A stretch of DNA of 64,000 bases, taken from an uncultured Clostridia bacterium (GTDB lineage Bacteria; Bacillota; Clostridia; Lachnospirales; CAMZNU01). The number at the start of each line of letters is the position of its first letter. Position 1 is the first letter of the stretch. Below are positions 15,760 through 27,664 of the stretch, one piece after another. The notes under the pieces were generated by a model. The model did not search any database and was not told the DNA's origin. It saw nothing but the letters and a program-made list of their open reading frames with translations. The DNA is taken from NCBI GenBank assembly GCA_947313885.1, contig CAMZNU010000015.1, forward strand, positions 1 through 64,000, read 5' to 3'. Both the position numbers and the translations under genes were made by a program.

Positions 15760-17097
15760 TTATTCCCAATATGTCGTTATATATTTATTGTTGAATAAAT
15801 ATTTTCGTAATGATGTCATCGCCGTATACGTCGCTAATATATATACTTTTTCTTCTCTACATTTTTTAATTTTTTCTATTAATTCACTATTAGTACTAGC
15901 GAATATAAAATTTTTCCTGTTGAATCCTGCTATTTTTAACCTTACAGCCATGTCGTACTTTCTTTTTCCACCTATTAATACCGTTCTATCACTTACTATT
16001 TCTTCAAAGTCTACATCCCATATCCACGATATATCGCGACTATCAACATAATCATCATTTAATAACAATACTATAGCACTATTTTCATTTCTTTTTACTG
16101 TCATTAATGCTTCATTATATCCCGCTGGGTTTTTAACTAAAATAACCACAACATCTTTATTTCCTATTTTTATTGTTTCATGTCTTCCTTTAATTTCAAC
16201 GTATCCCTCTAAATACTCCAATATTTTTTCTTTTTTAATTCCTAATTCTCTACATATTCCATATGCACAAAGCACATTGTAACTATTATACATACCCGTT
16301 AATGTTATATTTAATAATTCATTTTCGATTTTTATTGTCATTTCATTTTCTGTCATTTCTACAACTTCATTTATACTATATTTTATCATCGGTCTTTTAT
16401 GTCCACATTTATCACAATAATAATCACCTAAATGATTATACGAAATAAATTTATAACTATATTCATTTTTACATATAGTGCAAAACTTACCCCCTATGTT
16501 CACTTTAGCTTTTGTATCATTTTTCATATCAAACCCAAAATAAATTTTCTCATTCTCTACATCCACATTTCCTAGCATAGGATCATCGCCATTTAATAAT
16601 AATTTTATTTCTTTTTTGTTTATACCTTCTTCTATTATTTTTAATGTCGTGTATACTTCACCATATCTATCTAACTGATCCCTAAATAAATTTGTTACTA
16701 CTATCATTTTTGGTGTTATATATTTAGTTACCAACCTTACATTAGCTTCATCTATTTCTATAACACCTATTCTCTTTTCATCTTTTTTTATTAATTTATA
16801 ATTATATATTAACGTTGTTGCTATACCATTTAACATATTTGCACCTGAACCGTTTGTTACTACTACTATCCCGTCCATCTCTAATACTTTAGTTACTAGT
16901 GATGTTGTCGTAGTTTTACCATTAGTCCCCGTTATAAATACTATGTCCATATTTCTACATACGTACTTTAATATGTTTGGACTTATTTTTAACCCTATCA
17001 TTCCTGGTAAACTCGTTCCTCTTTTCATGATATTTTTTGTTATTATAGCAACTACTTTTGTTACACCTATAGCTATAATATTTCTTACATTTTCCAT
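15760..17097 (-). CDS. murT: Lipid II isoglutaminyl synthase, Mur ligase subunit MurT
   Basis: Mur ligase-like ATPase that activates the D-Glu carboxylate of lipid II for amidation with GatD. It is 445 aa. The P-loop FITGTNGKTTTTSLV is near residue 55, and a four-cysteine zinc-ribbon insertion (CTIC...YYCDKCG) lies around 205-230, both typical of MurT. The C-terminal DUF1727 region follows. The start ATG has AGAGGTG. A candidate -10 box TATAAT lies at 17123-17118. The first eleven codons and the upstream region are duplicated farther upstream. Confidence 0.92.
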   Translation of the reverse strand: MENVRNIIAIGVTKVVAIITKNIMKRGTSLPGMIGLKISPNILKYVCRNMDIVFITGTNGKTTTTSLVTKVLEMDGIVVVTNGSGANMLNGIATTLIYNYKLIKKDEKRIGVIEIDEANVRLVTKYITPKMIVVTNLFRDQLDRYGEVYTTLKIIEEGINKKEIKLLLNGDDPMLGNVDVENEKIYFGFDMKNDTKAKVNIGGKFCTICKNEYSYKFISYNHLGDYYCDKCGHKRPMIKYSINEVVEMTENEMTIKIENELLNITLTGMYNSYNVLCAYGICRELGIKKEKILEYLEGYVEIKGRHETIKIGNKDVVVILVKNPAGYNEALMTVKRNENSAIVLLLNDDYVDSRDISWIWDVDFEEIVSDRTVLIGGKRKYDMAVRLKIAGFNRKNFIFASTNSELIEKIKKCREEKVYILATYTAMTSLRKYLFNNKYITTYWE

Positions 17098-17400
17098 TTA
17101 GCACCTCTTTTCTATTGATTATATTGTAACCTATTCCCACTCTACTTAATCACTTCATAACACTTTAAAACCCATATACATTTATTTAACTTTTTATTAT
17201 AATCTATATTAGCATATTTTTATTTTTTTGTTACCCTATAGCTATAATATTTCTTACATTTTCCATTTAGCACCTCTTTTTCCATCGATTACATTGTAAC
17301 CTATTCCCACTCTACTTAATCACTTCTTAACACTTTAAAACCATATACATTTATTAACTTTTTATTATAATCTATATTAGCATATTTTTATTTTTTTATC
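17066..17400. repeat. Tandem duplication of the murT start and upstream region (about 169-bp period)
   Basis: Bases 17066-17231 and 17235-17400 are nearly identical. The proximal copy contains the real murT start codon and leader. The distal copy contains the same ribosome site, ATG and codons MENVRNIIAIG, immediately followed by TAA, so it encodes an 11-residue truncated peptide. The candidate -10 box is TATAAT in the proximal copy but TGTAAT in the distal copy. Confidence 0.92.
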
Positions 17401-17518
17401 ACCATTAAAATATAATTTTTTCTTTTACATCTTATTCTACTATTTTTTATATTGCTTATTATATTTTAACTTGCTATACTTTTGTGACGTTCATAAATTA
17501 AAAGTTACGAGGTATATT

Positions 17519-18892
17519 ATGTTTACAAACTTAAAAAATAAATTTATTGGTGATAAAGCATTTTACTCATCTGTCTTTTTTATAGCACTACCTATAGCTA
17601 TGCAAGCATCTTTAACTGCTATAGCTCAATTAGTTGATAATGTAATGGTTGGGCGTTTAGGTGGTGACATCGTTGCCGCTGTCGGTGCTGCTAATCAACT
17701 TTTTTTTATCGTTATGGTAACCTTTTTGGGAATAGCGGGCGGTGGGCAAATATTCATTTCACAATATAAAGGCGCGAAAGATGACTTAGGCATAAAATCA
17801 TCTTTTCACAGTATGTTGATTTTATTATTTATTTTTTCATTGTTCACTTATTCAATTGTAAACATTTTTTCAACACAGCTTCTAAGTTTTTTTACAACTG
17901 ATCCCGAAGTTCTTAAAATAAGTAAGCATTATTTACGTGTTACTTCTATTACATACATTTTTTTTGGAATTACAACAGCATATTCTACAGGTTACCGTGG
18001 TATCGGTAAATCTAATATACCTATGTTCGTTAGTTTTACTACCGTTATAACTAACAGCATTCTAAATTTTTTATTCATCTTTGGTTTTGATTTTGGATTC
18101 ATTTCTTTAGAGCCTCAAGGATATATTGGTGCTGGATACGCAACCCTAATAGCTAGAATATTGGAAAGTGCGATAATTGTTATTGTTTCTTTTATTGTTC
18201 ATTCAAATATTAGAACAACTTTTTTTGACTTGTTTAGATTAAAATTTTTATACCTTAAAGCTATTACAAAAAAAGCTTTCCCTCTTACTATAAATGAATT
18301 TTTTTGGTCATTAGGTCAAACAACTTTATTTATACTTTATTCACAGCAAATTCCCGAAAACGTAGCTAGCTTTACAATAGCTTTTACTTTCATTAATATG
18401 TTCTTTGTTCTTATGACATCTACATCTACTGCCGTATCGATTATTCTTGGCAATAACTTAGGTTGTAATGAAATTGAACTCGCAAAATCAAACAGTTATA
18501 AACTTTTAGGTTTTTCATTTTTTGTAAGTGTAGGTTCCGTATTTTTTATATACGCATCAACTGGTTTAATTCCTATTTTATATAATGTAGATGATACTAT
18601 CATTCACGCAACAAAAAATATTATGACTTTAATGGCTATTTTCTTTCCTATATATTTTTTAACAGCTACTTGTTTTTATATTTTACGTGCTGGTGGTGAT
18701 ATCCGTTCTGTATTATTAATGGATACTACTTTTTCATGGACTATTATAATACCAATTTGTTTTGTTCTAAGATCAGTTTTAGGCGTTGACCTACTTATAT
18801 CTTTTGGTATTATACAAGCTTTGGAGTTTGGTAAACTACTCCTTGGCTTTAAATTTATATCAACAAACCGATGGGCGAAAAATTTAACATAA
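17519..18892 (+). CDS. MATE family efflux transporter (first copy)
   Basis: A Na+- or H+-driven multidrug/toxin exporter of the inner membrane, 457 aa with about 12 hydrophobic segments in two MatE halves. Recognisable blocks are ALPIAMQASLTAIAQLVDN, MVGRLGGDIVAAVGAANQ and GGGQIFISQYKGAKDD. The frame is open from 17471, but GAGGT lies correctly before the ATG at 17519. It is a paralogue of the next gene; both end in RWAKNLT. Substrate is unknown. Confidence 0.9.
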   Translation: MFTNLKNKFIGDKAFYSSVFFIALPIAMQASLTAIAQLVDNVMVGRLGGDIVAAVGAANQLFFIVMVTFLGIAGGGQIFISQYKGAKDDLGIKSSFHSMLILLFIFSLFTYSIVNIFSTQLLSFFTTDPEVLKISKHYLRVTSITYIFFGITTAYSTGYRGIGKSNIPMFVSFTTVITNSILNFLFIFGFDFGFISLEPQGYIGAGYATLIARILESAIIVIVSFIVHSNIRTTFFDLFRLKFLYLKAITKKAFPLTINEFFWSLGQTTLFILYSQQIPENVASFTIAFTFINMFFVLMTSTSTAVSIILGNNLGCNEIELAKSNSYKLLGFSFFVSVGSVFFIYASTGLIPILYNVDDTIIHATKNIMTLMAIFFPIYFLTATCFYILRAGGDIRSVLLMDTTFSWTIIIPICFVLRSVLGVDLLISFGIIQALEFGKLLLGFKFISTNRWAKNLT

Positions 18893-19035: not shown

Positions 19036-19173
19036 GCTATTGTAATGTTCAAATGCTTTTTCTAGTGACTTGCATAGTTATATCTCAAATTTTTCTATTT
19101 GCTTTTTTACTGGCATTGACTTTGATATATCATGTTGCTAACATTGATTATATATTTTATAGGAGGTTCTTTT

Positions 19174-20550
19174 ATGGTATTAAAATTTAAAAATACATTT
19201 ATTCCTAACAATGTTTTCTTAAAAGAAATTATTGTTATTTCTTTACCCATTACTTTACAAATGCTCTTATCTAATCTCGGTAATTTAGTTGATAATATTA
19301 TGGTTGGTTCACTAGGAACAGATGTCGTCGCTGCCCTCGGCTCTGCTAATCAAATATTTTTTATTACTATGCTAATTTTTTTCGGCATTAGCGGTGGTGG
19401 ACAAATTTTTATTTCACAATACAAAGGTGCTAAAAATGATGAAGGTATTATGTCGTCTTTTCAAAGTATGCTTATTATTCATTTCTCTTTTTCAATAATT
19501 ATTTATATATTAGTAAATTTGTTTTCTTATAAATTAATTGGTTTCTTTAGTAGTGATTCTACAGTTGTTGATATGGGTGTTAAATACTTAAAAATTACAT
19601 CTATCGCATACATATTACTAGCTATTAATATTTCTTTTTCTACTGGCTTTCGTGCCATTGGAAAAACTAAAATACCCATGTTTATAAGTTTCTCTACTGT
19701 CATAACTAATACTATTTTAAATTATTTATTTATTTTCGGTTTCGACTTTGGTTTCATTTCCTTATCTCCACAAGGGTATGTAGGTGCTGGTTATGCTACT
19801 TTAATTTCTAGATCATTAGAAGTTTGTATTACAATTATCGTATCTACTGTATTAAACACAAATATTAAAATAAATTTACATAGTTTACTTTCCCTTAAAT
19901 TAAAATATTTTAAACAAGTAGCTAAAAAATCTGCCCCTTTAACTATTAATGAATTTTTTTGGTCGTCTGGTCAAACTACATTACTTATAATTTATTCTCA
20001 ACGTATCGCGGATAATGTAGCATCTCTTTCTATATCTGGTGTATTTTCAAATTTCTTTTTTGTTTTAATATCATCTATCGCTACTGCTGTGTCTATTATC
20101 GTTGGAAATAGTTTAGGTGAAAATAAAATTGATACAGCTAAAGAAAAAGCTTTTAAACTTATAGGTTTTTCTTTTTTCATAAGTATTATTGTATCTATTA
20201 TGTTACATTCAACTATATTTTTAATACCTATTCTTTTTAAAGTAGATGCTAATGTTATTGTTAATGCCCAAAACCTATTAACTTTAATCGCTTATGCATC
20301 TCCCCTATATTTTTTAAATGCTACTTGTTTCTTTATTTTACGTGCTGGTGGTGATACTAAATCTGTATTACTTATGGATACTGTTTATTCATGGACTATA
20401 GTATTACCAACTGCATTTTTATTACGTAGCATCTTAAAATTATCTTTAATCCAATCTTTTGCTCTAGTTCAATTACTTGAATTAATTAAATTAGTTATTT
20501 GTTTTAAATTTATTTTAAGCTACCGATGGGCGAAAAATTTAACCACATAA
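19174..20550 (+). CDS. MATE family efflux transporter (second copy)
   Basis: A 458-residue MATE exporter closely similar along its whole length to the preceding gene: shared blocks include MVGSLGTDVVAALGSANQ, GGGQIFISQYKGAKND and FFILRAGGDTKSVLLMDT. This points to a tandem gene duplication with later divergence. The frame begins at 19132, but AGGAGG sits just before the ATG at 19174. Substrate is not predictable; the two copies may differ in specificity. Confidence 0.9.
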   Translation: MVLKFKNTFIPNNVFLKEIIVISLPITLQMLLSNLGNLVDNIMVGSLGTDVVAALGSANQIFFITMLIFFGISGGGQIFISQYKGAKNDEGIMSSFQSMLIIHFSFSIIIYILVNLFSYKLIGFFSSDSTVVDMGVKYLKITSIAYILLAINISFSTGFRAIGKTKIPMFISFSTVITNTILNYLFIFGFDFGFISLSPQGYVGAGYATLISRSLEVCITIIVSTVLNTNIKINLHSLLSLKLKYFKQVAKKSAPLTINEFFWSSGQTTLLIIYSQRIADNVASLSISGVFSNFFFVLISSIATAVSIIVGNSLGENKIDTAKEKAFKLIGFSFFISIIVSIMLHSTIFLIPILFKVDANVIVNAQNLLTLIAYASPLYFLNATCFFILRAGGDTKSVLLMDTVYSWTIVLPTAFLLRSILKLSLIQSFALVQLLELIKLVICFKFILSYRWAKNLTT

Positions 20551-21069: not shown

Positions 21070-21116
21070 AAAAAACACCTTATGTATAAATTTTCATCTA
21101 TCATAGGGTGTTTTTT
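21070..21116 (-). terminator. Terminator downstream of the degenerate spoIIIAH copy
   Basis: AAAAACACC..TATG paired with CATAGGGTGTTTTT. It closely resembles the terminator after the intact spoIIIAH (22411-22459), so it was probably duplicated with the gene. Confidence 0.75.
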
Positions 21117-21120
21117 TTTA

Positions 21121-21561
21121 CTACTTCTATATGACTTGTTTTTACCGCCTTTACTTATAAGTCTGTTTTTCTAACTACTATATTATTAATTTGTGCTACA
21201 TCTTGATTTGTTATTTTCTTTATCTACTACTACATCTACTTTGTATCATCTAATCTTATATATACATCTCCGAAACCTTTAATGTTTTATTATTGTTTCT
21301 ATCGTTGCTTCTTTTTCAATTTTACTTTAAATTCCTAACTTTCTAACTGAAACTTTGTTATTTCTGCTGAACTTAATTTATCATTGTTTATTAATTCTAA
21401 TAAAAATTTTCTTAACATTAATCTTGATTGCTCATATTGACTTAGTTTTAGTAAATTAATTTCTACTATTTATACGGCTACTAATTCCCTCCCGTTATTT
21501 CTCTACTTCCATTTTTTCTAACTTTATATCCATCTTAATGTCGTCAATACTCATGCTTATT
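21121..21561 (-). pseudogene. spoIIIAH: Degenerate third copy of spoIIIAH
   Basis: Conceptual minus-strand translation, with frameshifts and stops, gives pieces matching the intact copy: YEQSRLMLRKFLLELINND, KLSSAEITKFQ, GFGDVYIRLDD and VVRKTDL. The N-terminal membrane anchor is missing. A short frame with ATG after GAAGGTGAT begins near 21554 but stops after 19 codons. I conclude that this is a dead tandem duplicate. Confidence 0.85.
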
Positions 21562-21582
21562 TATCACCTTCAATATATTTTG

Positions 21583-22158
21583 TTATTTATTATTTCTATA
21601 CGGACTTATTTTAACAGCTGTTGCTGGTAATTTTGTTTTCCTCATTACTATATCCCTAATTTGTTCTGCATCTTTATCTGATAAATTTTCCTTGTCTACT
21701 ACCACATCAACTGTTGTACCCTCTATCCTTACATACACATTTCTAAATCCTTTTGACTTTATTGCAAATTCTGTTGCTGTCTCTTTTTCCGTTTTATCTT
21801 GTATTTCTGATATTCTATCTGTAAACTCCGTTTTTTCGGCTAAACTTAATTTATCATTATTTGTTATTTTTAATAAAAGTTCCCTTTGTTTTGATCTCGA
21901 CTGCTCACGATTTAATTTAGCTTCTGTAAAATAATTTTTATTTATTTGTGCATTTACCAATATCGCTTCCCCTTCCTCCTTACTTTCATCTACTGTCAAC
22001 GGTAGGTTTTCTAATGTTATATTCACATCACCTATTGTAGTTATTTCAACTACATCATCATTTAGTTCTATATAATCTAAATAACTTACTATTGCTATTA
22101 ATAGTACTGTCGCACTTAATATCAATTGGCTTTTCCCTGAATTAAATTTTTTCTTCAT
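21583..22158 (-). CDS. spoIIIAH: SpoIIIAH paralogue (second copy)
   Basis: A 191-residue protein with an N-terminal membrane anchor (about 9-25) and a C-terminal ring-building domain in which GFRNVYVRIEGTTVDVVVDK and TAVKISPYRNNK match the first copy. SpoIIIAH sits in the mother-cell membrane and pairs with forespore SpoIIQ to form the feeding channel. Compared with the first copy it lacks about 30 residues after the anchor. The frame is intact and has a strong GGGGGG ribosome site, so it may be functional; it might instead be an early stage of decay. Confidence 0.85.
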   Translation of the reverse strand: MKKKFNSGKSQLILSATVLLIAIVSYLDYIELNDDVVEITTIGDVNITLENLPLTVDESKEEGEAILVNAQINKNYFTEAKLNREQSRSKQRELLLKITNNDKLSLAEKTEFTDRISEIQDKTEKETATEFAIKSKGFRNVYVRIEGTTVDVVVDKENLSDKDAEQIRDIVMRKTKLPATAVKISPYRNNK

Positions 22159-22164
22159 TATATG

Positions 22165-22385
22165 ATATCCCCCCTATTTCATTTCTATGCTTAATTTTTA
22201 TTTGTTAGCATCTTTTAAAGTATTTTTAATGTTGTCAATTCATATTTATCTCCTATAATTTAATCTATTACTATCTTATACATGAAAAAATTTTTAATAT
22301 TATCGATACACCTTCACCCTTCTTGAAATGATCCACTCCCATATTTAGGTGTTCTATAAATCTCCAATCCTTAAAACTACTTATG
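22165..22385 (-). pseudogene. spoIIIAG: Decayed 3' fragment of spoIIIAG between the spoIIIAH copies
   Basis: The sequence before the second spoIIIAH aligns with the last 130 or so bases of spoIIIAG: GGAGATA..AATAT near 22255, ACTTTTAAA-like bases near 22215 and the exact end GAAATAGGGG before the ribosome site. Shared AGTAGCGATAATA-like bases lie near 22310. No open frame survives. It shows that the duplication unit was spoIIIAG-spoIIIAH, not spoIIIAH alone. Confidence 0.65.
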
Positions 22386-22410
22386 TTTTCTTAATTCTAT
22401 CTACTCTTAT

Positions 22411-22459
22411 ATAAAACACCCTATGTATATATTTGATGTTTATACATAGGGTGTTTTAT
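22411..22459 (-). terminator. Terminator at the end of the main spoIIIA operon
   Basis: A perfect 19-bp stem (22411-22429 and 22441-22459) containing AAAACACCCTATG, overlapping the spoIIIAH stop codon. It would limit read-through into the second spoIIIAH copy. Confidence 0.87.
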
Positions 22460-23130
22460 TATTTACTATTTGTATACGGACTTATTTTAACCGCCGTTAC
22501 TGGTAAATTTGTTTTTCTAGTTACTATGTCATTAATTTGTGCTATGTCTTGAGCCGTTAATTTTTCCTTATCTACTACTACATCAACTGTTGTATCATCA
22601 ATTCTGACATATGCCTCTCCAAACCCTTTTGATTTTATTATAGATTCTGCCGCTGTTTCTTTTTCAATTTTACTTTGCATTTCTAACATTCTATCTGAAA
22701 ACTTTGCTCTCTCTGCTGAACTTAATTTATCATTATTTATTAATTCTAATAAAAGTTCTCTTTGCATTGATCTTGATTGTTCACGGTTTAGTTTGGTTTC
22801 TGTAAAATAATTTCTACTTATCTGCGCATTTACTAGTATCGCTTCCCCTATCTCTGTGCTTTCATCTGTTAATGGTAGTTTTTCTAATGTTATATTAGTA
22901 TCCCCTATTGTACTTATTTCAACTATCCCATTATCTCCTATTGTCGGTAATTCTGTAAATTTAGTTGTTTCATCCCTTACTATTGACGTAACTTCCCCAT
23001 TGTCTGATAGCACTATTGGATTTAGCTCATTATTTGAATCTATATAATTTAAATAACCAGCTACTGCGATCATCAACACTAACACACTTAATACAACTTG
23101 ATTTTTACCTAAGTTAAATTTTCTTTTCAT
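22459..23130 (-). CDS. spoIIIAH: Stage III sporulation protein SpoIIIAH (first, canonical copy)
   Basis: A 223-residue protein, the normal SpoIIIAH length. It has an N-terminal membrane anchor (about 9-26), a linker, and a C-terminal YscJ/FliF-like ring domain with KGFGEAYVRIDDTTVDVVVDK. In B. subtilis it forms the mother-cell half of the SpoIIQ-SpoIIIAH channel across the intermembrane space of the forespore. It lies 14 bases after spoIIIAG with a GGGGGA ribosome site, the standard operon order. Confidence 0.93.
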   Translation of the reverse strand: MKRKFNLGKNQVVLSVLVLMIAVAGYLNYIDSNNELNPIVLSDNGEVTSIVRDETTKFTELPTIGDNGIVEISTIGDTNITLEKLPLTDESTEIGEAILVNAQISRNYFTETKLNREQSRSMQRELLLELINNDKLSSAERAKFSDRMLEMQSKIEKETAAESIIKSKGFGEAYVRIDDTTVDVVVDKEKLTAQDIAQINDIVTRKTNLPVTAVKISPYTNSK

Positions 23131-23144
23131 TCTATGATATCCCC

Positions 23145-23702
23145 CTATTTCATCTTCAATACTTGAATTTTATGTACTGGCACATTTAAAAGTGATTCTG
23201 CTACCCTTGTAAAAGCTTCTACTATATTTATATCTCCTCCTCCTTCTGCTATTATCGCTACTCCCTCTATTTGAGGTTTTAATTCCTTTAGCACAACTGG
23301 TGCGTTTTTATTAGCTGTATTTGGCGAAAATAACGTTTCCGTTTTTTCCTTTTCTTCCCTTATCTCCCTTAAACCATTTTCACCGTCTTTTTCAATAGTC
23401 TCCTTGTAGTTAAAGTCAATATCTTTTGCTAATATCAATTCACCTTCATTTACTAAAGTTATCATTACTTTTACTTTTCCCGCACCTTTTACAGTACTTA
23501 ACAATACTTCTAACTTTTTTTCTAAATTAGATGTATAACTCTCTACATTTGCAGGTCTAGGTTTTTCAACTTCTTGAATTATTTCATTTTTATTAAAATC
23601 TATCCCGCTAACTATTAAAATAATGACTCCTAACAAAAAAGCAATATAAACGTTATATTTACTTTTACTGTTCTTATTAAATAGCGTCCTTAGTTCATCC
23701 AT
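23145..23702 (-). CDS. spoIIIAG: Stage III sporulation protein SpoIIIAG
   Basis: A 185-residue protein with an N-terminal membrane segment (about 18-36), a charged middle and a C-terminal domain containing LKPQIEGVAIIAEGGGDINI. SpoIIIAG forms a large secretion-like ring in the feeding tube between mother cell and forespore. It is shorter than the B. subtilis protein (about 229 aa). It overlaps spoIIIAF by 8 bases. Confidence 0.92.
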   Translation of the reverse strand: MDELRTLFNKNSKSKYNVYIAFLLGVIILIVSGIDFNKNEIIQEVEKPRPANVESYTSNLEKKLEVLLSTVKGAGKVKVMITLVNEGELILAKDIDFNYKETIEKDGENGLREIREEKEKTETLFSPNTANKNAPVVLKELKPQIEGVAIIAEGGGDINIVEAFTRVAESLLNVPVHKIQVLKMK

Positions 23703-24282
23703 TCATTTCCTCCTCTTGTATATATATATATATATTGTCTACGGACAAATTATATACCTCGCTTAATAATTTTTTAATCTCTAAACTTTCACTATTTTCG
23801 ACATTTTTTTCATCTATCTCTATCACTATTTTTTTTATAGCCTTTATTTTTTTACTATCCTCTTTTTTTAATTCTAATTTAATGTACTTAACTTTTATAT
23901 CCTTCGCTTCCTCTACTTCTATTTCACACTCTACTACTTTGTACTCACTTTCATTTTCTACTATTTGTTCAATTTCCCTTTTTTTACTTTCTATGTTTCC
24001 ACTTAACAATAATTTACTTTGTTGTTCTTCTATATAATTACTATCTATTGATTTCTCATTTTCTTTTATATACTCCTCATAACCCATATTAATATTTAAG
24101 CTTATATTCCTATCCCCTCCCATTATGAAAAATAATGGTTGCATTACCAAAAACATTAATATTAACCCTAAAAATATTCTTATGAACTTTGCATATTTGT
24201 CACTAGGCATTATTATTTCCACTAAGCTTGTAAACACTACATAAAATACTATTACTCTTACATATTCTTTTATATACTCCAT
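23695..24282 (-). CDS. spoIIIAF: Stage III sporulation protein SpoIIIAF
   Basis: A 195-residue membrane protein with two N-terminal hydrophobic segments (about 8-22 and 34-55) and a charged C-terminal domain, as in SpoIIIAF. It is part of the SpoIIIA complex in the mother-cell membrane. The start ATG at 24282 has GAGGGG 5 bases upstream. This start, its ribosome site and six codons are repeated three more times upstream (see the 55-bp repeats). Confidence 0.9.
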   Translation of the reverse strand: MEYIKEYVRVIVFYVVFTSLVEIIMPSDKYAKFIRIFLGLILMFLVMQPLFFIMGGDRNISLNINMGYEEYIKENEKSIDSNYIEEQQSKLLLSGNIESKKREIEQIVENESEYKVVECEIEVEEAKDIKVKYIKLELKKEDSKKIKAIKKIVIEIDEKNVENSESLEIKKLLSEVYNLSVDNIYIYIQEEEMNG

Positions 24283-24283
24283 A

Positions 24284-24448
24284 CTTACCCCTCGCCTGTC
24301 TCTTTAATATAAAAGATTATTCTTTTATATATTCCATACTTACCCCTCGCCTGTCTCTTTAATATAAAAGATTATTCTTTTATATACTCCATACTTACCC
24401 CTCGCCTGTCTCTTTAATATAAAAGATTATTCTTTTATATACTCCATA
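24284..24448 (-). repeat. Three 55-bp tandem repeats copying the spoIIIAF start region
   Basis: Units begin at 24284, 24339 and 24394, with an exact 55-base period. On the minus strand each unit carries a GAGGGG (or GAGGTAG) ribosome site, an ATG and codons for MEYIKE followed at once by TAA. Each unit also contains a perfect hairpin, ATATAAAAGA / TCTTTTATAT. Only the last start reads into SpoIIIAF. Confidence 0.93.
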
Positions 24449-24463
24449 CTTACTACCTCATAT

Positions 24464-25618
24464 CTATACGCTCAATATTAATATAAACGACATTACCATC
24501 ATTAATAGTGTCGATGTTAGCACACTTAATAAAAATCCTATATATATTTGTATCGTTTTAAATGCTTTGTAAATTCTACCATCACATATAGGCTCTATTA
24601 CTACACCTGCATATGTGTAAACTATCATTACACTAAATATATTTACTACATAATAAAATGATATTATTAACGCACCTATTATCAATGCTACTGTTAACCC
24701 ACTTTTAAACGCATCTGAAAAATACATAACTGTTTCTAATCCCGTTGATATTGTAGTGCCAATTACAGGTACTACATTTAATGTTGATTGTAATACCTTT
24801 TTAACTAATCCATCACTTATAGGAGTACTCATCTTAAATAATGACAGCACGCCTATAAAAATTATTACTATATATTTTATCCCTTCTTTTATAATTTTTC
24901 TTGATATATCTATTAATCCACCTAATACCTCTCTTTTAGTTAAATTATTAAATATTTCTACTATAAACATTAAATATATAAACGGTAATATTATATTTTT
25001 AAATATTGTAATCATTATATAAGATACCGTTAACAATAACGGTTGTGCTAACAACGCTGAATTTGGATTACCACTTATAAACAAACTACTTATTATTATA
25101 GGTATCGTATTTAACATAAAATTATTTGCCTCTATTAAAAGATCTAACGTGTACGAATAAACTAACTCAAATGATGTTATCAATAAAGTTATTATTGATA
25201 TATACATTATATAAAACGTTAATTCTCCTACTCCTTTTGTTTTTAATGAATCTGTTAATACTTTTATAAACGCACTCCCTAGTCCTACTAATATTATATT
25301 TCTTACTATTTCTAAATGTAGTTTCATTTCGCTAAATATAATATATACTATCGTATTAATAATTTCTTTTATTGTAAATGTAGTTCTACCCGTTAAAACA
25401 CCTGTTATTATTTCTTTTGTAGAAATACTACTACCATAACTTTTATTTATTATCCCATCTATATCATCATAATTATATATGTCAACTTGCTCGCTTATAA
25501 GTGTCGATAATTTATCAACTTCGGCACTTTTTATTTCTACCCTTACATTTATTACAAAAATTATTACTAATATTAATATTACTTTTCTTATGTATATCAT
25601 AGACACCTTCTTTATCAT
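24464..25618 (-). CDS. spoIIIAE: Stage III sporulation protein SpoIIIAE
   Basis: A polytopic mother-cell membrane protein of 384 aa (B. subtilis about 399). It starts with a signal-like hydrophobic segment (8-24) and has roughly seven further membrane helices, with family block NTIPIIISSLFISGNPNSA near 170 and a small-residue region VVPVIGTTISTGLETVMYF near 280. It acts in the SpoIIIA channel. It overlaps spoIIIAD by 4 bases. Confidence 0.93.
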   Translation of the reverse strand: MIKKVSMIYIRKVILILVIIFVINVRVEIKSAEVDKLSTLISEQVDIYNYDDIDGIINKSYGSSISTKEIITGVLTGRTTFTIKEIINTIVYIIFSEMKLHLEIVRNIILVGLGSAFIKVLTDSLKTKGVGELTFYIMYISIITLLITSFELVYSYTLDLLIEANNFMLNTIPIIISSLFISGNPNSALLAQPLLLTVSYIMITIFKNIILPFIYLMFIVEIFNNLTKREVLGGLIDISRKIIKEGIKYIVIIFIGVLSLFKMSTPISDGLVKKVLQSTLNVVPVIGTTISTGLETVMYFSDAFKSGLTVALIIGALIISFYYVVNIFSVMIVYTYAGVVIEPICDGRIYKAFKTIQIYIGFLLSVLTSTLLMMVMSFILILSV

Positions 25619-25998
25619 AATACCGTTAGTATTAAATCAACCAACCTTAATATTATAGGTGATGCTATCACCAAAATTAAAACTTTACCCCCTAATTCTA
25701 TTTTATTCGCTATACCATTTTCCCCCGCATCACTACATATTACACTCGCAAACTCCGTTATATACGCTATGCCTATTATTTTAAAAATTATTGAAAAAAA
25801 TATTTTTTCATCTCCTAAATACTTCGTTAATTCACCATATAAATCTCCTAAATACAATATACTAGGTAATAAATACCCTAATATTAATACACTTGCCATT
25901 AAACCTATTAACATAGATATTTCCGGCATTCTTTTTTTTACCAGTAATGATAATACCGTACTAATTAACCCTATACTTATTATTTGAAATATATCCAT
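25615..25998 (-). CDS. spoIIIAD: Stage III sporulation protein SpoIIIAD
   Basis: A 127-residue membrane protein with about four helices and the family end FASVICSDAGENGIANKIEL followed by GKVLILVIASPIILRLVD. Its length and place between spoIIIAC and spoIIIAE match the known operon. It is part of the membrane platform of the SpoIIIA channel. Confidence 0.93.
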   Translation of the reverse strand: MDIFQIISIGLISTVLSLLVKKRMPEISMLIGLMASVLILGYLLPSILYLGDLYGELTKYLGDEKIFFSIIFKIIGIAYITEFASVICSDAGENGIANKIELGGKVLILVIASPIILRLVDLILTVL

Positions 25999-26006
25999 AT
26001 TATGTC

Positions 26007-26201
26007 CTATAACTCGAAAAGTTGTTTCAACATTATAAATAAATCACTTATATATCCTACTACCCAAAATAAAACTAATACCAATCCTGCTAATGTTAAC
26101 AACATCGCTTGTTCATCACGTCCAGCTTTTACTAAAACTTGGTTTACTACTGATATTAATATACCTACTCCTGCTATTTGGAAAATTATATCTATCGTCA
26201 T
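26007..26201 (-). CDS. spoIIIAC: Stage III sporulation protein SpoIIIAC
   Basis: A 64-residue protein with two membrane helices and the conserved middle NQVLVKAGRDEQAMLLTLAG, typical of SpoIIIAC (68 aa in B. subtilis). It is an export-gate-like subunit of the SpoIIIA complex. Confidence 0.94.
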   Translation of the reverse strand: MTIDIIFQIAGVGILISVVNQVLVKAGRDEQAMLLTLAGLVLVLFWVVGYISDLFIMLKQLFEL

Positions 26202-26220
26202 CTTATCCTCCTCGTTACTG

Positions 26221-26748
26221 TTAAACTAAAATTATAATTATTAATAGTCCGCATAATATACTTATCGTTTTATATAATTTAACTTTCTTAAAACTCGTGT
26301 TACTTAACTCTTTAATTTCCACTTCTATAAACTTAATTAACATAATTATATTTTTTAATTGTAGTTCCATATCATTACTACTTAACATTTGACCAAATCT
26401 TTTAATTTCATCTAGTTCAAATGGTGTAAAATACATCTCCTCTTTATATTTTTCAACTACATCTTCCCATATTTTATATGTCTCGCCGTAAATGTTTTCC
26501 TCTAACTCCTCACTAAATTCATAAAATATTTTCTTTACTGGCATCTCCATATTTTCACTTATTTTTTTACATGCAACACTTATTAACTCATTGCTATATT
26601 TAATTTCACTTTCTAACAACAATAATCCCTTTTTTAATTCTTTATAGTCTTTTAACTTATATACTTCTTTACTTCCTATATAACTGCCATACATAAACAT
26701 AGGTATTATTATACATATACTCCCCACTATCAATATCATTTTACTCAC
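26221..26748 (-). CDS. spoIIIAB: Stage III sporulation protein SpoIIIAB
   Basis: A 175-residue protein with N- and C-terminal membrane helices and a helical middle (YKELKKGLLLLESEIKYSNE). It resembles GspF-type platform proteins and is the expected partner of the SpoIIIAA ATPase. It overlaps spoIIIAA by 8 bases. Confidence 0.92.
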   Translation of the reverse strand: MSKMILIVGSICIIIPMFMYGSYIGSKEVYKLKDYKELKKGLLLLESEIKYSNELISVACKKISENMEMPVKKIFYEFSEELEENIYGETYKIWEDVVEKYKEEMYFTPFELDEIKRFGQMLSSNDMELQLKNIIMLIKFIEVEIKELSNTSFKKVKLYKTISILCGLLIIIILV

Positions 26749-27664
26749 CCCACATTTTTTTTAAGTTTTTATCATATACCCCTTCAACTTGTCCAACTTT
26801 TCTTGCATTTGTTAATACTATGTACTTATCAAACGTTTTATTACTTATTAACTCTTTCATTATTTTTTTATTTTTTACATCGTCTATGTTTTTACTATGC
26901 ACCGTTGCTAAAATTTTTACCCCAGCATTTAATAACATGTTTATACTTTTTATATCTTCCTCACTCCCTATCTCATCCACAGCTATCACATTTGGTGACA
27001 TAGATCTTAGCAACATCATCATTCCTAAGCTTTTTGGACAATTTTCTAATACATCTGTCCTACTTCCTAAATCAATTTGCATCTCCCCATTATGTGACGC
27101 ACTTATTTCACTTCTTTCATCTACTACCCCAACTGTTACACCCCGATTACTTATGTTTTTTATTAGATCTCTTAACAATGTAGTTTTTCCACACCCAGGC
27201 GACGATATTATTAATGTATGTCCCATTTCTTTTGAAAAAATATAGGGCATCACTTTATTGCTACACCCTTTAACCTCACGACTTATTCTAATATTCATAC
27301 TCATTATTTCTTTTATACCTTTTATTTTCCCATTTTCGATTATAACTTTTCCCGTGATACCAACTCTATGACCACCCGCTAATGTTAAAAAACCTTTTTT
27401 TATATCTTCTTCTACAGCATAATATGACCTTTTAGTCATAATATCTAAAGTTTGGTTTATATCTTTTTTTGTACACGAATATCCATCTTTTATATTAGTT
27501 GTTAACCCTTTATCTGTTATGTAATATTCATTTTTACCTTTTTTTATTATTAATGCCTTTCCTACTCTTATCCTTATTTCTTCTAAATCTTTAAACCAAT
27601 CACTACTTTTAATTAATTTATTTTTAATTTGCAAACTTACGTTATTTATTATGACATTTTCCAT
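26741..27664 (-). CDS. spoIIIAA: Stage III sporulation ATPase SpoIIIAA
   Basis: A cytoplasmic secretion-type AAA ATPase of 307 aa, the same length as in B. subtilis. The P-loop SSPGCGKTTLLRDLI is near residue 155, and the Walker B-like VIAVDEIGSEED lies near 225. It powers the SpoIIIA-SpoIIQ feeding channel from the mother cell. The start has AAGGAGAAGG. It is the first gene of the operon, and a sigma-E-like promoter precedes it. Confidence 0.95.
   Translation of the reverse strand: MENVIINNVSLQIKNKLIKSSDWFKDLEEIRIRVGKALIIKKGKNEYYITDKGLTTNIKDGYSCTKKDINQTLDIMTKRSYYAVEEDIKKGFLTLAGGHRVGITGKVIIENGKIKGIKEIMSMNIRISREVKGCSNKVMPYIFSKEMGHTLIISSPGCGKTTLLRDLIKNISNRGVTVGVVDERSEISASHNGEMQIDLGSRTDVLENCPKSLGMMMLLRSMSPNVIAVDEIGSEEDIKSINMLLNAGVKILATVHSKNIDDVKNKKIMKELISNKTFDKYIVLTNARKVGQVEGVYDKNLKKMWGE

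Follow-up and report, generated by a model that had tools for sequence, protein, structure and literature searches.

The spoIIIA operon of an uncultured Clostridia bacterium ends in a tandem array of three spoIIIAH copies, the second of which (H2) is an unusual, probably functional paralogue of a normally single-copy gene. The first copy (H1) is the intact orthologue and the third (H3) is a pseudogene, while H2 behaves like a gene under constraint, though a relaxed one, and not like a plain pseudogene. H2 retains the ring-building domain, has a shorter linker than H1 and differs from its relatives mainly in the membrane anchor, and from this sequence pattern we consider it about evenly poised whether H2 is a retained, diverging second ring subunit of the SpoIIIA-SpoIIQ (A-Q) complex. 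The tandem amplification with unequal decay described in a first-pass annotation of this DNA is borne out by the three-copy alignment, the codon models and the frame analysis.

The window, i.e., the whole stretch of 64,000 nucleotides that was analysed, has a G+C content of 28.5% and comes from a 1.55 Mb draft genome (95.8% complete, 49 contigs). The bacterium is a spore-former with a small genome; the entire spoIIIA operon, AA to AH, lies on the minus strand of the window with every frame open (Table 1), and SpoIVA is present in the genome. The spoIIIAG-spoIIIAH pair, earlier described as intact, has both frames intact, and H1 combines a full-length PF12685 match above the curated cut-off of 30.6 bits with the slot directly after spoIIIAG on the same strand. 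The second open copy of 191 aa was likewise confirmed, with a match over the full PF12685 profile. No match to the alpha/beta-type SASP family (PF00269) was found in this 95.8% complete genome with SpoIVA and the spoIIIA operon; the spores may be without these DNA-protecting proteins, or the gene may fall in a gap.

Table 1. Features of the spoIIIA operon and of the spoIIIAH array (positions in the window).
Feature	Position	Strand	Evidence
spoIIIA operon remainder (AA-AF), all open	23695..27664	-	
spoIIIAA	26741-27664	-	NCBIfam spore_III_AA
spoIIIAB	26221-26748	-	NCBIfam spore_III_A series (AA to AE)
spoIIIAC	26007-26201	-	NCBIfam spore_III_A series (AA to AE)
spoIIIAD	25615-25998	-	NCBIfam spore_III_A series (AA to AE)
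spoIIIAE	24464-25618	-	NCBIfam spore_III_AE
spoIIIAF	23695-24282	-	Pfam and NCBIfam
spoIIIAG, intact, 185 aa	23145-23702	-	TIGR02830, E 7.6e-29, below curated cut-off
spoIIIAH-1 (H1), 223 aa, intact, orthologue	22459-23130	-	PF12685 163.5 bits, profile 1-191
Hairpin 3' of H1, 19 perfect pairs, terminator-like	22411-22459	-	-24.9 kcal/mol, z -7.3; repeat I8
spoIIIAG 3'-end remnant and copy of the spoIIIAH ribosome-binding block (GAAATAGGGGGGATATCATA)	22159-22221	-	Repeat and alignment
spoIIIAH-2 (H2), 191 aa, open	21583-22158	-	PF12685 131.6 bits, profile 1-191
spoIIIAH-3 (H3), ring-domain pseudogene without anchor	~21120-21550	-	Stops and frameshifts
Decayed hairpin copy 3' of H3	21072-21119	-	-18.0 kcal/mol, z -5.4; repeat I10

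Over their shared part the copies are 81% (H1-H2), 78% (H1-H3) and 72% (H2-H3) identical in DNA and a 300-bp repeat block is common to H1 and H2, identities that are far beyond chance; the H1 and H2 proteins are 69% identical. The spoIIIAG remnant and the copied ribosome-binding block before H2 are borne out by an ungapped repeat (22042-22221 and 23014-23193, 71%). Of this stretch, the last 26 nt ahead of the H2 start codon hardly differ from the corresponding nucleotides of H1, whereas the adjoining remnant has decayed. The presence of a decayed spoIIIAG 3' fragment, reported earlier, is clear over about 65 nt and becomes marginal further upstream (p = 0.036 against shuffles). Similar terminators had also been noticed at two of the copies, and the hairpins after H1 and H3 are indeed homologous (paired as repeat I10), the second lying just outside the annotated region 21121-23702; H2 itself is followed by none. 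H3 begins in mid-gene about 30 nt past the H2 stop, which indicates that the intervening stretch has been deleted.

The strip from 17 to 24.5 kb holds several tandem duplications that differ in age, at murT, between spoIIIAE and spoIIIAF, and at spoIIIAH. The first is a 170-bp duplication (17056-17397, 95%) of the murT start and the region upstream of murT. The second consists of 3.5 copies (98%) of a 55-bp unit (24263-24453) that contains the spoIIIAF ribosome-binding site and first codons, and it adds three starts (24447, 24392, and 24337), each reading MEYIKE and then a stop; two of them carry the same GGCGAGGGG block. These extra starts could be decoy or leader starts for spoIIIAF. Two adjacent MATE-family efflux genes (17471-18892 and 19132-20550), with DNA 78% identical over 141 nt in places, are probably another, older tandem pair.

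The duplication is native to the lineage, as shown by a tree of SpoIIIAH from 44 loci of the order, the level at which the nearest relatives among the comparison genomes were found: H1 and H2 are sisters with support of 100/100. The branch leading to H2 is three times longer than that of H1 (0.60 vs. 0.19 changes per column). There are five sites where a single copy retains the family residue and the other two have a different residue in common; the pair is H1 and H3 at four of them (best T112 and M122) and H2 and H3 at one (p 0.045 for the departure from equal odds). Together with the H1-like hairpin behind H3 this small number of sites suggests that H2 split off first and that H3 came later from H1, perhaps through duplication of an H1-H2 block and a subsequent deletion. 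The successive stages of duplication and loss that had been read from the array are thus weakly ordered, by four sites against one in favour of H2 before H3.

H3 matches the C-terminal ring domain only. Relative to H1 it has 52% protein identity, nine in-frame stops (six TAG and three TAA in the H1 frame) and about ten frameshifting gaps, in agreement with its earlier description as frameshifted and anchorless, and it is a pseudogene. Its changes are spread evenly over codon positions 1, 2, and 3 (24, 23, and 18; p 0.62), which makes it a useful internal control for H2.

The alignment of H2 with H1 contains two gaps, of 99 and 3 nt, both in frame, and pairwise omega between them is 0.09-0.41 (four methods). 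A codon model of all three copies, in which H3 was treated as a pseudogene branch with free omega and two frequency models were used, gave an omega of 0.04-0.06 for the H1 branch and a higher one of 0.25-0.53 for H2 (p 0.01-0.04). H1 is thus shown to be under strong purifying selection, and its low omega indicates that the A-Q complex is in use. With a free omega for H3, a value of 1 for H2 was not rejected (p 0.40 and 0.15); fixing H3 at 1 led to rejection under just one of the two frequency models (p 0.003 vs. 0.08). The dN/dS comparison of copy 2 with copy 1 that had been proposed favours constraint in its pairwise form, but neutrality of the H2 branch is not always rejected. Nor do the H2-specific changes by codon position (12, 18, and 23) depart from uniformity (p 0.18). 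Neutral evolution over the H2 branch is expected to produce 1.7-3.4 stops, and none is present (probability of none 0.19-0.03); at the H3 rate, 4.6-10.6 frameshifts are expected, and again none is present. The combined chance of an intact frame under neutrality is about 1.5e-3 to 1e-6 according to the branch length assumed, with the indel rate calibrated on one pseudogene, H3. Taken as a whole it is likely that the H2 protein is under constraint.

The changes in H2 are unevenly placed. Conservation among the 44 relatives reaches 95% or more at 25 positions of the alignment; H1 has the conserved residue at all of them and H2 at 19. In its anchor region (first 33 residues) H2 has lost five of six such invariants (N10S, L17T, M20L, A24V, and G25S) vs. 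one of 19 elsewhere (A197E, H1 numbering; p = 0.0006). H2 still has an anchor-like hydrophobic stretch that qualifies as a membrane anchor (mean hydropathy 2.14 over 19 residues), with one of the six anchor-region invariants of the order, a count that is not a formal family criterion. The stretch from anchor to ring domain is 47 residues long in H2, 79 in H1 and 63-135 in the relatives; the H2 linker is 33 codons shorter than that of H1 and below all 44 relatives compared. Open frames of just 167-175 aa occur in some genomes elsewhere in the class, so that shortness of the linker is not in itself without precedent. The ring domain of H2 scores 140.7 bits against its profile, the lowest of 46 sequences (H1, 160.5). 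The fold of this domain is retained in a structure model built on two sequences and confident for residues ~120-186 only, the best PDB matches of which are SpoIIIAH (3TUF_A and 3UZ0, E ~1e-5). The same B. subtilis SpoIIIAH structures (3TUF and 3UZ0) were matched by the model of H1, likewise built on two sequences. The change in H2 is thus centred on how the protein is placed in the membrane and less on its ring domain, and this pattern, with anchor and linker altered and the ring domain kept, agrees more readily with a mixed ring than with a new partner for the ectodomain.

The genome encodes one SpoIIQ (332 aa; contig C7, G000:C7:49101-50096), anchored at its N-terminus and carrying a LytM domain that is dead. 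The second SpoIIQ gene that the first-pass annotation suggested looking for was absent among all M23 matches of the genome above the family cut-off, and the genome has a single SpoIIIAG match, the intact gene of the operon. The dead LytM motif was considered as a special feature tied to the duplication and was ruled out, as almost every relative within the order has a dead motif too. On another contig an M23 peptidase gene adjoining a pyruvate kinase gene (L042:7212-8050, G000:C27) has its anchor and catalytic parts in two frames, with intact catalytic motifs and the break near a run of A; this is a frameshift, phase variation or a sequencing error. With respect to expression, a strong hairpin separates H2 from H1 and the operon. 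Consensus scans for a sigma-E, -G, or -K promoter of H2 gave nothing convincing over shuffles, and the positive control before spoIIIAA failed too; sigma-70 sites were no more numerous than in shuffles.

The array arose when a block consisting of the spoIIIAG 3' end, spoIIIAH and the terminator was duplicated in tandem in this lineage. Copy one stayed the orthologue under strong purifying selection, and copy two kept its ribosome-binding block, frame and ring-building domain while dropping the 33 linker codons and altering the anchor-helix invariants. A later duplication may then have yielded H3, which lost its anchor and died. Transcription of H2 could occur by readthrough of the hairpin or from its own promoter. 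Most likely, H2 would function in the membrane of the mother cell as a second ring subunit of the SpoIIIAH type. It may assemble with H1, perhaps facing the single SpoIIQ, but its position within the membrane may differ and its ring domain may be held nearer to the membrane, so that mixed or alternative rings would form in the A-Q complex. It is tempting to speculate further that H1 and H2, the latter having a short linker and an anchor unlike that of H1, make up mixed or stage-specific rings facing one SpoIIQ, i.e., a natural heteromeric ring; this more specific proposal is a tentative one, possible although rather doubtful on the sequence pattern from which it is drawn.

The main rival to a retained ring subunit is that H2 is in early decay, selection having been lost recently and the frame still being open by luck, with H3 as a later stage. 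The long branch, the relaxed omega, the loss of six of 25 invariants along with the lowest ring-domain score, and the linker deletion would all be expected from this, as would a hairpin that cuts H2 off from the operon and the lack of a clear promoter in scans that failed on their control. However, a neutral tail giving an omega of 0.25-0.5 would have been long enough for stops and frameshifts to accumulate at the rates calibrated on H3, the losses are concentrated in the anchor instead of being spread, and the ribosome-binding block has been kept; we regard early decay as somewhat unlikely. H2 could also have left the A-Q complex to serve another membrane partner. The alteration of N10, L17, M20, A24, and G25 may change helix packing in the complex and would agree with such a departure, as would a linker below that of the 44 relatives, but with 18 of 19 invariants outside the anchor kept and neither a second SpoIIQ nor a second SpoIIIAG in the genome a different partner is improbable.

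That H2 serves to increase SpoIIIAH dosage and is in other respects interchangeable with H1 is very unlikely: a tandem copy with the same ribosome-binding block would be suited to this, but 69% identity, the loss of 33 linker codons and a long branch are unlike the outcome of pure selection for dosage. Likewise, a draft in 49 contigs could in principle contain an array made by assembly, but the copies differ by 19-28% in DNA, have decayed unequally and are located within a single contig, away from its ends. Strain mixing or misjoining does not produce such a pattern, and an artefact is the least probable reading.

The view that SpoIIIAH is normally single-copy was upheld by a survey in which the PF12685 family was found above the cut-off in 284 of 392 genomes from the order and in 278 of 391 from the class (~550 different genomes): none of these other genomes has a second copy. 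At least two raw matches were present in 37 of them, and when checked individually the extra matches were split pieces of one gene, one apparently frameshifted gene, or matches below the cut-off. The frameshifted case (L061 and L063, G287:C49:43573-44176) is the sole spoIIIAH of another genome of the order, lying in two overlapping pieces, and is apparently a single copy. No description of a duplicated spoIIIAH was found in the literature.

It is disputed whether SpoIIIAH forms a ring or channel at all, and according to a recent report B. subtilis can dispense with direct binding between SpoIIQ and SpoIIIAH (PMC12720343). A paralogue in which the ring domain is kept while anchor and linker are changed is a natural variant with which to ask which part of SpoIIIAH matters, and ring contacts, the SpoIIQ contact and membrane partners are candidate parts that H2 could help to tell apart. 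The array by itself is no demonstration of a new mechanism. It does suggest that duplication followed by retention is possible for a gene found as a single copy throughout a class. The SpoIIIAH described here resembles that of the A-Q complex of Bacillus subtilis and Clostridioides difficile (PF12685; 3TUF, 3UZ0) in its N-terminal anchor, linker, ring-building domain and slot after spoIIIAG; it differs in that SpoIIIAH elsewhere was found as one copy per genome checked, whereas here a second divergent open copy is present with a pseudogene behind it. Several ring-type proteins in the A-Q complex are already the rule, as SpoIIIAG and SpoIIIAF share a related ring-building motif (PMC7924749), but these are ancient separate families whereas H2 is a lineage-specific duplicate of SpoIIIAH. 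Sporulation genes that are tandemly duplicated, with some copies lost, are known from the SASP genes (PMC3533761). SASPs, however, are DNA-protecting spore proteins that form multigene families, whereas SpoIIIAH works as part of a multi-subunit complex and remains single-copy.
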